A stretch of 34,691 bases of DNA, from the NCBI GenBank assembly GCA_021798015.1, contig JAJZYP010000009.1, forward strand, positions 1-34,691, given 5' to 3'. The position numbers and the translations under genes are program-made. The notes below the pieces were generated by a model. The model searched no databases, was not told the DNA's origin, and saw nothing but the letters and a program-made list of their open reading frames with translations. Positions 22,279-30,939 of this stretch are shown one piece after another. Source of the DNA: a bacterium (GTDB lineage: Bacteria > SZUA-79 > Acidulodesulfobacterales > Acidulodesulfobacteraceae). Position 1 is the first letter of the stretch, and every line of letters begins with the position of its first letter.

Positions 22279-24096
22279 TTGGAAAGGGCGATAGATAAAC
22301 TTTTGGAATATTTTAATACATATTACGATAGATATAAGTATGAATTTTATCTAATTTTATTATCCGTATTAGTTTTCATTATACATTTACATCTTGCCTC
22401 CACTTTAAACTTGGGCAATGACGAGGCTCACTACTATGTCTGGTCGCTAAAACCGTCGTTTGGTTACCTTGACGATGCCCCTTTCGTCAGTTATATTATC
22501 TATTTTTTTACTAAGCTTTTTGGAAAGAGCGAGCTTAGTGTCAGGCTCGGCGCGATTATTTTTTCGTTTTTAGACGGCTTTTTAATATATTATCTTTCGT
22601 ATTTGCTCTTTAGAAATAAAAGGGCATCTTTTTTTGCTTTTTTGTTTTTTTTATCGGCATTAATATTTAGTACCGTTCTATCCGTTATGATGATGCCTGA
22701 CGCGTCTCTTTTGTTTTTCTATCTGTGTTTTTTAGTTATCTTTTATAAAACCCTCGGGTACAGAAATAAAAAAGGTAAAGCCGAAGATGGTTTAGAAAAA
22801 CAGCGAAGGTTCAATGATAGCTTATTGCTATGGATACTTACCGGGGTTTTTTTGGGCCTTGCATTTTTAAGCAAATATACCGCGGCTTTAATCCCTCCTT
22901 CCGTTTTCTTATATTTATTAGTTTCTAAGAAAAATAGGGCTGTTTTAAAAACATTTTATCCGTATCTGGCTCTTGCTATTGCCCTTCTTGTTTTCTCACC
23001 TGTAATTTATTGGAATTTTACGCATAATTTTATATCCTTTAAATTTCAGCTTTCACACGGTTTTTCACACCCTACGCCCGGAATTTCTCTATTTATAGAC
23101 GGATGGCTTGGGCAATTTTTAGTAATTACGCCGTTTATCTATCTGTTTTTAATTGGAACATTCGGTTATTCTATAAAATTTGTTTTGTTTAAAAAGCGGC
23201 ATGATTTAAATATAAAGGGGTCTGATTTCAAATCAGACCCCTTTATTGATAACCTGAAGGCAGAATCCTACGCGGATATTGCCGAGGGGTTTTTATATTC
23301 CATCTGTTTATCGCTTCCTATTTTAGTTTTCTTTATTGTAAACGGATATTCGCATAGGATTCTTGTTCACTGGCCAGATATAGGTTATATGACCGCATTT
23401 CCTATTATGGGGTATGTTGCGGATAGGATTAGCGGAAAAGGAAACCGGATGAAACTCTGGGAAAAATTCAAATTAAATGCCGCCAAATCTTATGTATATT
23501 TTGCAATTTTTTTTGGCTTTTTCTTATGTTTTGTTTTATACAATCAGATTTATTATAATTCAATACCGGTAGGAAAAATAATAAGATATATCGATAAGGA
23601 AAAGCAGCTTAAAAAAAGCGAAATATTTTCATTAATACCACATATCCCCGGAAAACCAAAAACGGCAGATATAACGAATGATCTTTTTGGGTGGAAAATG
23701 AGTGCAAAATATATCGGCATTGTTTTTAAAAGGTGTGAAGCCGTTTATCATCCGCTTTTTATCCTGACGCATCACTATGCCATAGCCGATGAGCTTGTCT
23801 ATTACGGAGGATATAAGCCTGCGAGGAATATTTACAACATATCCGGATTTTTAAATCAATACGACTTATGGCAAAATTTAAACAAAATAAACGGGGAAAA
23901 TGCAATTTTTATAATGGATAATAAGTATATGATAAATCCGATACGGACATATAAGAAGGATTTTAAATCCATAAAAGAAATAGGCAGACTTGATATATAT
24001 GTTAAATTTAGACCTGTTAGGGTATATTATCTGTATTTGATGAAAGATTTTAACGCAAAAAAGGCTATAATACATATTAAAAGAAGGATGTATTGA
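22279..24096 (+). CDS. GT39/ArnT-like polytopic glycosyltransferase
   Basis: A 605-residue membrane protein with roughly ten membrane segments in the first 430 residues and a soluble C-terminal part. The catalytic first loop carries acidic residues in 'LGNDEAHYYVWSLKPSFGYLDD' as in PMT_2/ArnT proteins, which transfer sugars from polyprenyl-phosphate donors to lipids or proteins on the periplasmic side. The adjacent dolichol-phosphate-mannose-synthase-like gene probably makes the donor. Residues about 312-323 are encoded by a perfect 35-bp palindrome inserted in frame. The TTG start follows the previous stop with no separate ribosome site, suggesting coupled translation. Confidence 0.82.
   Translation: MERAIDKLLEYFNTYYDRYKYEFYLILLSVLVFIIHLHLASTLNLGNDEAHYYVWSLKPSFGYLDDAPFVSYIIYFFTKLFGKSELSVRLGAIIFSFLDGFLIYYLSYLLFRNKRASFFAFLFFLSALIFSTVLSVMMMPDASLLFFYLCFLVIFYKTLGYRNKKGKAEDGLEKQRRFNDSLLLWILTGVFLGLAFLSKYTAALIPPSVFLYLLVSKKNRAVLKTFYPYLALAIALLVFSPVIYWNFTHNFISFKFQLSHGFSHPTPGISLFIDGWLGQFLVITPFIYLFLIGTFGYSIKFVLFKKRHDLNIKGSDFKSDPFIDNLKAESYADIAEGFLYSICLSLPILVFFIVNGYSHRILVHWPDIGYMTAFPIMGYVADRISGKGNRMKLWEKFKLNAAKSYVYFAIFFGFFLCFVLYNQIYYNSIPVGKIIRYIDKEKQLKKSEIFSLIPHIPGKPKTADITNDLFGWKMSAKYIGIVFKRCEAVYHPLFILTHHYAIADELVYYGGYKPARNIYNISGFLNQYDLWQNLNKINGENAIFIMDNKYMINPIRTYKKDFKSIKEIGRLDIYVKFRPVRVYYLYLMKDFNAKKAIIHIKRRMY
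23212..23246. repeat. Palindromic element inserted in frame in the GT39 gene
   Basis: ATAAAGGGGTCTGATTT and its exact reverse complement, 17 bp each, flank a single C. Codons through it read I-K-G-S-D-F-K-S-D-P-F-I with no stop, so it is translated in a cytoplasmic or periplasmic loop after 'FVLFKKRHDLN'. The core GGGTCTGATTT matches the palindrome at 26072-26116, making it a dispersed family. Confidence 0.85.
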
Positions 24097-24117: not shown

Positions 24118-24888
24118 ATGAACATACTCGTGGCAATACCCACATATAATGAAAAAGAAAATGTCGGAAAGATGATAAAATCAGTTTTAAATCTAAACGA
24201 CAATGAAACGGTTAAGGGATTAAACATTAAGATAAGCCTTGTTATAATAGACGATAACTCGCAGGATGGAACGTGGGAAATCGTGAAAAGTTTTATTGAA
24301 AATAACGGAAAGAATGAAAATACTGGCAGATTTAAAAATAATCTGTTTTTAATCGAAAGGGAAAAGAAATCAGGTCTTGGAACGGCTTATGTCGCGGCAT
24401 TTAAGTTTGCCATAGACAGGGGTTTTGATTATGTTATTACGATGGATTGCGATTTTTCCCATAATCCGGATGAAATTGCCGGTTTTATCAGCCTTATGAA
24501 TGATAAAAAATATGGGATGATTGTTGGTTCAAGATATATAGGTGGAATAAGGATAATAAACTGGAGTATGAAGCGGCTTTTAATATCATATTTTGCCAAT
24601 ATTTACGCTAAATTAATTACAGGGGTTAAAATAGATGATTTGACGGGCGGTTTCAATATGTACGATGTAAACTGTCTTAAAAAGATAAATTTAGACGGCA
24701 TTAACTCAAGGGGGTATGCTTTTCAAATTGAAATGAAATATAGGGTGAAGAAAGAGGCAGGTGAAGGTTTTGAGGAATATCCGATAATATTTTATGAAAG
24801 AACTAGGGGCAAATCCAAGATGTCAAACGGCATTATTTTTGAAGCCTTTTTTACTGTAATTAAACTCAGGCTTGGGCTCTATAAATAA
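24118..24888 (+). CDS. GT2 polyprenyl-phosphate sugar synthase (dolichol-phosphate mannosyltransferase-like)
   Basis: A 256-residue GT-A fold glycosyltransferase with 'ILVAIPTYNEKENVGKMI', 'LVIIDDNSQDGTWEIV', 'KKSGLGTAYVAAFKFAID', the DxD-type 'TMDCDFSHNPDEI' and 'GSRYIGG'. This is the pattern of DPM1-like polyprenol monophosphomannose synthases without the GtrA-like membrane domain. It transfers a hexose from a nucleotide sugar to a polyprenyl phosphate in the cytoplasmic leaflet. The GT39 gene 21 nt upstream is the likely user of the lipid-linked sugar. The identity of the sugar is not shown by the sequence. Confidence 0.88.
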   Translation: MNILVAIPTYNEKENVGKMIKSVLNLNDNETVKGLNIKISLVIIDDNSQDGTWEIVKSFIENNGKNENTGRFKNNLFLIEREKKSGLGTAYVAAFKFAIDRGFDYVITMDCDFSHNPDEIAGFISLMNDKKYGMIVGSRYIGGIRIINWSMKRLLISYFANIYAKLITGVKIDDLTGGFNMYDVNCLKKINLDGINSRGYAFQIEMKYRVKKEAGEGFEEYPIIFYERTRGKSKMSNGIIFEAFFTVIKLRLGLYK

Positions 24889-26071: not shown

Positions 26072-26116
26072 TTAGAAAAAAGGAGTCTGATTTGAAATCA
26101 GACCCCTTTTTTCTAA
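26072..26116 (+). terminator. Palindromic element acting as terminator after the cytochrome c gene
   Basis: A 22-bp arm, TTAGAAAAAAGGAGTCTGAT plus TT, pairs with AAATCAGACCCCTTTTTTCT plus AA with one mismatch and a one-base loop. The run of Ts in the right arm gives it the form of an efficient bidirectional terminator. It shares the GTCTGATTT/AAATCAGACCCC core with the palindrome inside the GT39 gene. Confidence 0.8.
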
Positions 26117-28318: not shown

Positions 28319-28384
28319 AATATATATAATATAATTGGAATTAAAGCGGCGTATTTTAAGCCTATTAATATATTGCAATTGATA

Positions 28385-28554
28385 ATCCCAAAATTGCCGA
28401 TAGAAAATTATTTTTCTGGATTCCCGCCTACGCGGGAATGACTTTGCGGGGATTTAACTTTTCACCCAACGGGTGTCATTCCCGCGTAGGCGGGAATCCA
28501 GTGTTAATATAACTCTAAAACCATTTTAAAGATTTCTATCGGCAATTTTGGGAT
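28385..28554. mobile_element. MITE-like composite inverted-repeat element
   Basis: The outer arms are a perfect 22-bp inverted repeat: ATCCCAAAATTGCCGATAGA plus AA (28385-28406) against its complement (28533-28554). Inside lie two inverted copies of a 27-bp unit, CTGGATTCCCGCCTACGCGG plus GAATGAC (28416-28442 and 28475-28501), each itself a palindrome (ATTCCCGC-CTAC-GCGGGAAT). The unit is far more G+C-rich than its surroundings and resembles widespread REP-like repeats. There is no coding capacity, so any transposition would be in trans. Confidence 0.85.
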
Positions 28555-28610
28555 AATGTGAAAAAATTAAAAATGTTTAAGGAGGTGGAAAAGAGGAAAG
28601 AGATTAAAAC

Positions 28611-30387: not shown

Positions 30388-30939
30388 ATGGAAGAATTCA
30401 AAAAAGAGGATGATTTTGTGAATATGAGCTTATCGGTTTCTCCCGAAAAATATTTCGACGCTCGTTTTGACGGTCAGGAAAAGCTCTTTACCGAAAAGTT
30501 TAATGGGCTTAAGACGCAATTCGACGAACGGTTTAACAGCCTTGAAGCAAGAATCGATAATCTTGAATCTAAATTTGACGAAAAGTTTAACAGCTTTGAA
30601 GCAAGAATCGATAATCTTGAATCTAAATTTGATGGGAAAATTAATAATCTTGAATCTAAATTCGACGAACGGATTAACAGCCTTGAATCTAAATTCGACG
30701 AACGGATTAACAGCCTTGAATCTAAATTCGACGAACGGATTAACAGCCTTGAATCTAAATTCGACCAGCGGATTAACGGCTTGGAAACTAAGTTTGACGG
30801 TGAGATCAAAATTCTATTGGAAAAGATTGAAAGCGTTGATAAAAAATTAAACTGGACATCTAATTTGACTTTTGCAATTCTTGGATTAGCGTTGGTTATG
30901 GTTGGAACTTTATTTGCCAAATTAGTTTTGCACTTTTAA
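30388..30939 (+). CDS. Repeat coiled-coil protein with C-terminal membrane anchor (DUF1640-like)
   Basis: A 183-residue protein. After a short N-terminus it consists of 11-residue repeats of the type 'NSLESKFDERI', predicted as one long hendecad coiled coil (about residues 25-150). The C-terminus is a single membrane helix ('FAILGLALVMVGTLFAKLVL'). The layout resembles DUF1640/CCDC90-type proteins, whose bacterial members have no known function. Three units are identical at the DNA level over 33 bp, so recent expansion is likely. AAGGAG lies before the ATG. Its target is unknown; its neighbours do not point to a role. Confidence 0.82.
   Translation: MEEFKKEDDFVNMSLSVSPEKYFDARFDGQEKLFTEKFNGLKTQFDERFNSLEARIDNLESKFDEKFNSFEARIDNLESKFDGKINNLESKFDERINSLESKFDERINSLESKFDERINSLESKFDQRINGLETKFDGEIKILLEKIESVDKKLNWTSNLTFAILGLALVMVGTLFAKLVLHF
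30649..30780 (+). repeat. Tandem 33-bp repeats in the coiled-coil gene
   Basis: Three perfect copies of a 33-bp unit (starting CTTGAATCTAAATTCGACGA) lie at 30649-30681, 30682-30714 and 30715-30747, with a near-identical fourth to 30780 and diverged units upstream. The unit equals eleven codons, so copy-number change keeps the frame. Confidence 0.92.

Follow-up and report, generated by a model that had tools for sequence, protein, structure and literature searches.

REPs and Rickettsia palindromic elements (RPEs) lying in frame within genes are already known (PMC3733652). The intragenic GTAG and CGTC REPs are short palindromes in frame, sometimes two in one gene, and are otherwise mostly intergenic (PMC3733652); the element described here resembles them in its in-frame short palindromes but lacks the GTAG/CGTC tag and has another core. 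Like RPEs, it is inserted in frame in unrelated proteins (a glycosyltransferase, a shikimate kinase and an aldolase) and is absent in orthologues, whereas its core and lineage are different, and a candidate mobiliser can be named here; RPE-1 is also longer than this element (PMC3733652). A further likeness is to TIRtrons and to TIRYT (TIR-associated tyrosine transposases). GGGGWSAS is a motif common to many TIRYT terminal repeats (Di Nocera et al. 2013, PMC3733652), and their repeat families occur as single, dimeric or grouped copies (PMC3733652). Most TIRYT have been placed in subclass 2.1, with a C-terminal HTH (Bac_DnaA_C, HTH_23 or HTH_28) (PMC6006769). We likewise find a GGGGWSAS-type core beside a RAYT-like HUH/Y1 gene, with single, dimeric and grouped copies, but unlike in TIRtron/TIRYT the dimers are collapsed to near-perfect palindromes, many copies are intragenic and their mirrored outer stems are site-specific. 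REPINs, in which two inverted REPs are moved as a unit by a RAYT, are a possible parallel to the inverted pairs with spacers of 0-1 nt, 10-12 nt and longer that we observe.

The features discussed below lie in what we call the window, that is, the whole stretch of 34,691 nucleotides that was analysed:

22279-24096, plus strand: PMT_2 (GT39/ArnT-like) glycosyltransferase of 605 aa, the host gene of the element; the listed start is TTG
23197-23265, plus strand: hypervariable loop, residues ~307-329, with other in-frame palindromes or none in relatives
23212-23246, no strand assigned: in-frame copy of the element, a 35-bp palindrome (17+1+17) with the peptide IKGSDFKSDPFI
23217-23241, no strand assigned: constant core GGGGTCTGATTT-C-AAATCAGACCCC
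26072-26116, no strand assigned: second copy of the element, AAAAAAGGAGTCTGATTTGAAATCAGACCCCTTTTTT, intergenic and terminator-like

The sequence ATAAAGGGGTCTGATTTCAAATCAGACCCCTTTAT at 23212-23246 is perfectly palindromic, and every other perfect palindrome in the window has arms of 9 or fewer. At 35% GC, arms of at least 17 are expected by chance about 9e-6 times in the window; the longest arm over 20 window shuffles was 13, and the core, with up to three mismatches allowed, had no occurrence in 100 dinucleotide shuffles. The palindrome is in phase with the 605-aa ORF and supplies residues 312-323 without a stop, as an earlier note on this DNA had reported, while the outer stem ATAAA/TTTAT around the core is specific to this copy. 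The ORF matches PMT_2 (PF13231, E 5.9e-28), and an NCBIfam search yielded nothing beyond a weak match to an ArnT model. In an AlphaFold2 model built from 25 family orthologues, the mean confidence of which is modest (66.6), residues 307-329 have a pLDDT below 50 and are flanked by the predicted membrane helices 285-307 and 328-354, so that the predicted structure agrees with the placement of the palindrome at a loop after a membrane segment.

The free-standing terminator that the same note had seen downstream is a genuine copy, since 26079-26109 differs from the window palindrome at one of 31 positions; it has a single mismatched stem pair (GGAG/CCCC), and 26085-26103 within it scores as a terminator-like hairpin with a T run. 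Its neighbours are judged, from their translations only, to be a cytochrome-c-like gene and a cysteine desulfurase-like gene. Two repeats of other kinds were also observed in the window: a nested inverted repeat at 28382-28557, with outer 25-nt arms (96%) around perfect 27-nt arms CTGGATTCCCGCCTACGCGGGAATGAC, which is probably a miniature element, and in-phase 33-nt repeats at 30454-30792 encoding a coiled-coil-like protein with SLESKFDERIN repeats.

When the glycosyltransferase orthologues were compared across 27 family genomes, the palindrome was present in G000 and G003 and shortened in G002. Within the genus of the window, G003 carries NINGSDLKSDPFID at the palindrome site, G002 has NIKGSDLDPFIDN, in which the hairpin tip has lost six bases with the frame intact, and G001 has an unrelated short linker in its place; in the orthologues of G005 and G025, from other genera, the palindrome was not found at the loop. 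The same linker in genus g6 reads KGTDFKSVPF in G010 and KGTDLKSVPF in G022, holds half-site pairs with a spacer in G028 and G021, and single halves in G023 and G008. The residues are thus missing from G001, G005 and G025, and the outcome that the earlier note had named as refuting, namely that every orthologue carries them in non-palindromic codons, did not occur. An ancestral protein segment is ruled out by these alignments and, judged on the orthologous sequences, the glycosyltransferase palindrome is an insertion. It is accordingly extremely improbable that we are dealing with an ancestral segment, or with a palindrome produced by chance or replication slippage and devoid of mobility: the loop is hypervariable in all relatives and slippage is able to create palindromes, but the same 25-nt core occurs in unrelated genes, its ACAGA variant occurs in unrelated genomes and contigs, and the core is missing from close orthologues, so that the alignments have largely refuted this explanation.

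Copies are also present in two further loops of the glycosyltransferase, around residues 165 and 390, in G003, G012, G010, G022, G021 and G027; other genomes, for example G023, have these loops short and empty. A second, unrelated palindromic element, CTCCCCTCCTTNNAAGGAGGGG(T/A)GTCGGCCGAAGGCCGACGGGG, read in frame as RRGVGRRPTG, was observed in the same loops (L023, L027, L028, L029, L032, L035 and L041), where it sometimes adjoins the first.

Other genes show the same states. In the shikimate kinase, the element is present in G000 and G003 and missing from G002, which is 79% identical, and the additional residues separate two blocks that adjoin one another in 2pt5, a shikimate kinase of solved structure. 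In the aldolase, the element is near-intact in G002 and G003, while elsewhere there are decayed remnants or none; the KFKSVPL-like aldolase segments in g6 look like such remnants. Taken together, the orthologues of the three genes display insertion, divergence and decay. The shikimate kinase loop of G018 (L246) and G016 (L247) holds different palindromes, GGGGGACAGATTTAAAATCCGTCCCC and ATAAAGGTATCGGATTTTAAATCCGATACCTTTAT, which makes it a second recurrent target. At an orthologous intergenic site 3′ of the shikimate kinase in six genomes (L143, L145, L151, L117, L181 and L124), the core is kept and the outer stems differ, and these still pair in G010, G026, G008 and G016.

Pattern searches and fetched stretches yielded 97 copies of the element in the family, 33 of which lie in ORFs by a simple criterion (an ORF of at least 110 codons, with at least 15 codons before and at least 8 after the element), although a few of these are near the N-terminus and may precede the true start; the remainder are mostly intergenic. 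Many of the carriers are backed as genes by Pfam, several strongly, among them shikimate kinase, chorismate synthase, a sigma-54 response regulator, DNA polymerase III alpha (DnaE), class II aldolase, an AAA_33 kinase and an NADH dehydrogenase-type subunit. The frame KG[ST]D[FL]KS[DV]PF is used by 25 of the 33 in-ORF copies, an excess that is at least partly due to stop filtering, since it is the only core frame that is open whatever the centre base. These counts, which the earlier note had called for, together with the orthologue comparison, bear out its view of a dispersed small repeat that can sit in frame and is missing from some orthologues, and the in-frame insertions support its comparison with the coding palindromes of Rickettsia, in another lineage and with another sequence. 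Its suggestion that the repeat favours frame-neutral insertion does not hold up in the same way, given that about two thirds of the 97 copies lie outside a clear ORF and that the frame excess at least partly reflects stop filtering. The relation to RAYT/TIRYT terminal repeats, the mirroring of host flanks and the repeated insertions into one gene had escaped the earlier note.

All collected copies contain the core GG.C.GATTT, and a GTAG or CGTC tetranucleotide at the stem end was not found in any of them. When 85,000 species genomes were searched for exact matches to the core as it stands in the window (TCTGA), nine stretches were recovered, and this core is so far known only within the family. 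The ACAGA core is wider: four of the 356 genomes sampled from elsewhere have it, as do environmental contigs, and these extra-family copies are partly in frame as GTDFKSVP. Among viral contigs, 13 stretches, mostly on GC-rich contigs, have the ACAGA core and none has the TCTGA core.

We consider it probable that we are dealing with a small non-autonomous repeat of REP/TIR type, of which the palindrome is one in-frame copy. Its half-sites were most likely spread by a RAYT/TIRYT-like transposase, and its stems would be upheld by template switching. The repeat unit would be the half-site AAAGGGG[AT]CAGATTT (window variant GGGGTCTGATTT), and the palindrome would consist of two half-sites head to head, with the interior shrunk to 0-1 nt. 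Such compact forms may have arisen from head-to-head pairs losing their interior, as suggested by spaced intermediates in which the halves lie 10-12 nt apart (G003 and G000) or are separated by longer spacers (the loops of G022, G021 and G028). Copies that fall in surface loops and keep the frame open would be tolerated and inherited, in line with the presence and absence of the element among orthologues.

Each half-site equals a single arm of the palindrome, and its half-core GGGG[AT]CAGATTT(ATTT) is found in related genomes on the flanks of a RAYT-like Y1 transposase. RAYT-like Y1 genes of ~240-270 aa occur in G016, G022, G021, G014 and G010; they match PF01797 (E 1.3e-13), and the match of a RAYT-like gene to NF047646 REP_Tyr_transpos (E 4.7e-21) reaches 75 bits against a cut-off of 80. 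In these five genomes, AAAGGGGACAGATTTATTT or AAAGGTGTCAGATTTATTT, exact or near-exact, is found 0-330 bp from the gene on at least one side, and three of them, G022, G021 and G016, have half-sites on both sides, the last with its exact upstream half-site 1.1 kb off and nearer ones carrying two mismatches. Exact half-sites number only 20 per ~1.8 Mb in G022. They are inverted around the gene in G021 and opposite-facing downstream of it in G014 and G010, while the flanking half-sites of G016 and G022 are direct rather than inverted repeats; near the RAYT-like genes of G008 and G009 an intact half-site was not found. In G022, G021 and G014 the RAYT-like gene is located 4-7 kb from the glycosyltransferase. 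Because half-sites flank or surround this Y1 (HUH) transposase in related genomes, the RAYT/TIRYT-like family is the most likely spreader. From this association and from REP biology, we infer that the transposase would act on single-stranded DNA, in trans or in the past, and that it would move the palindromic form itself.

A RAYT-like gene was searched for and not found in G000 (79% complete) and G003 (97% complete, with 10-12 copies), and a weak Y1 match on contig 155 of G000 proved to have no HUH-bearing ORF; the mobiliser is therefore absent from the same genome now. Y1 genes of IS200 size (~140-185 aa) were left aside as candidates for the mobiliser after a regex scan revealed no matching flanks, with the exception of one ATCTGTCCCC located ~1.4 kb from a Y1 match in G004. 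Neither a target-site duplication nor a transposition event was observed. The half-sites GGGGACAG and GGGGTCAG and most palindromes fit GGGGWSAS. In comparison with TIRYT, the window copy, which reads GGGGTCTG, is one base away from the motif, the transposase is not found in the carrier genome, and the C-terminal HTH of subclass 2.1 was not detected, no second Pfam domain being found in the 245-aa RAYT-like protein up to E 1. Since the motif matches, the HTH is undetected and the inverted placement is partial, we argue that the repeat behaves as TIRYT/REP repeats do and that its membership in TIRYT is likely.

The alternative that these copies form an RPE-like class of coding palindromes of its own, agent unknown, and that the proximity of half-sites to RAYT-like genes only reflects shared repeat-rich arrays, seems to us rather unlikely. 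It could account for carrier genomes such as G003 that lack any Y1 gene, and for toxin-antitoxin arrays that bear half-sites although the stretch examined has no RAYT-like gene, and CGTC repeats, including the intragenic RPEs of Rickettsia, are not transposase-linked (PMC3733652). It sits poorly with half-sites lying so close to the RAYT-like gene in five genomes and with a half-site motif equal to the published TIRYT-end motif.

Arrays of half-sites were observed in L183 (G016 contig 16, 325-6690) and also in L184, L185, L186 and L191, where half-sites AAAGG[GT]G[AT]CAGATTTATTT follow one another at intervals of 0.2-2 kb and often face the same way. They separate small gene pairs (HicA/HicB and DUF2283/DUF4258), with a RAYT-like gene among them in G016, and similar pairs recur in other genomes; the whole resembles an array of toxin-antitoxin cassettes with transposase repeats set between them. 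Two copies of the N-terminus of a GT2 gene, a homologue of the window gene at 24118, flank the G016 array (L183 0-302 and 6334-6645), one of them running directly into a half-site (..GTGQINKRGQIYFTPADLKA), and the array appears to interrupt this gene.

The outer stems differ from site to site. When the left flank of each copy was compared with its own right flank and with the right flanks of other copies (n=93), the palindrome was found to extend a mean of 7.2 nt past the constant core, whereas 2000 permutations gave 2.76, with a maximum of 3.3; the mirroring drops to background by position 12. For example, a loop of G012 reads AAAGCGGTGGAA-core-TTCCACCGCTTT, and its left part is host sequence common to G010, G014 and G028; the right flank is therefore a reverse-complement copy of host DNA. 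Mirrored flanks also occur in other lineages (e.g. GAGGAATTGGGGGACAG..CTGTCCCCCAATTCCTC). Within the core, two variable positions are Watson-Crick paired in 83 and 89 of the 93 copies, with three pair types each, the remaining positions being set by the search pattern and uninformative on pairing. Three pairs of orthologous coding copies show five changes within the stems, and four of these are two-sided, a test limited by related sequences and small numbers.

Template-switch mutations create and maintain hairpins, as documented for RNA genes (PMC8794818), and the mirrored flanks and two-sided stem changes, the less expected features of this element, fit copying of this kind. Our copies share perfect stems, two-sided changes and possibly a reversed centre base with those cases but differ in being mobile repeats in protein-coding sequence, and their switches are inferred, not traced on a tree. 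The simplest route would be fold-back at replication, with the template switch copying one arm, together with host flank, to the other side, so that stems stay perfect and grow outward. The mirrored flanks could also reflect hairpin selection or a palindromic target, and are not a known property of REP/TIRYT insertion; alternatively, transposition may itself mirror the flank as the copy inserts.

Were the palindrome kept by selection because it forms a hairpin in RNA or DNA (as a terminator or for mRNA stability or pausing), perfect stems and two-sided changes would be explained without template switching. Such selection would suit the intergenic copies with A-run/T-run flanks, the terminator score of 26085-26103 and the coding hairpin at the window palindrome, which is far stabler than shuffles (z -4.3). 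We nevertheless regard it as quite improbable for the palindrome, given a strong mid-gene hairpin in shikimate kinase, aldolase and glycosyltransferase without evident function, the patchy presence and decaying remnants, and stems that reach into host codons differing at each site. Template switching, rather than hairpin selection, would then keep the stems. A more tentative proposal, in which we place distinctly less trust than in the spread of half-sites by a transposase, is that the palindrome is self-extending, a TIRYT-derived core seeding a coding hairpin from which repeated template switching copies adjacent host codons to the opposite side as their reverse complement.

A literature search with the core DNA returned unrelated matches only, and with the peptide KG[ST]DxKSxP none. 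As far as the literature consulted shows, what is new here is coding palindromes with a TIRYT-type core, relatives with repeated insertions in the loops of a single gene, and mirrored stems particular to each site. For the coding palindromes of Rickettsia we found no named mobiliser in the literature consulted, and this family offers a candidate in the RAYT/TIRYT-like transposase with its matching half-sites. Full, decayed and empty states at several orthologous sites, together with the measurable signature of mirrored flanks and two-sided changes, make it possible to test how coding palindromes originate and are maintained. If the palindrome does extend itself, it would turn host antisense DNA into new in-frame protein loops and at the same time preserve a perfect stem of its own.
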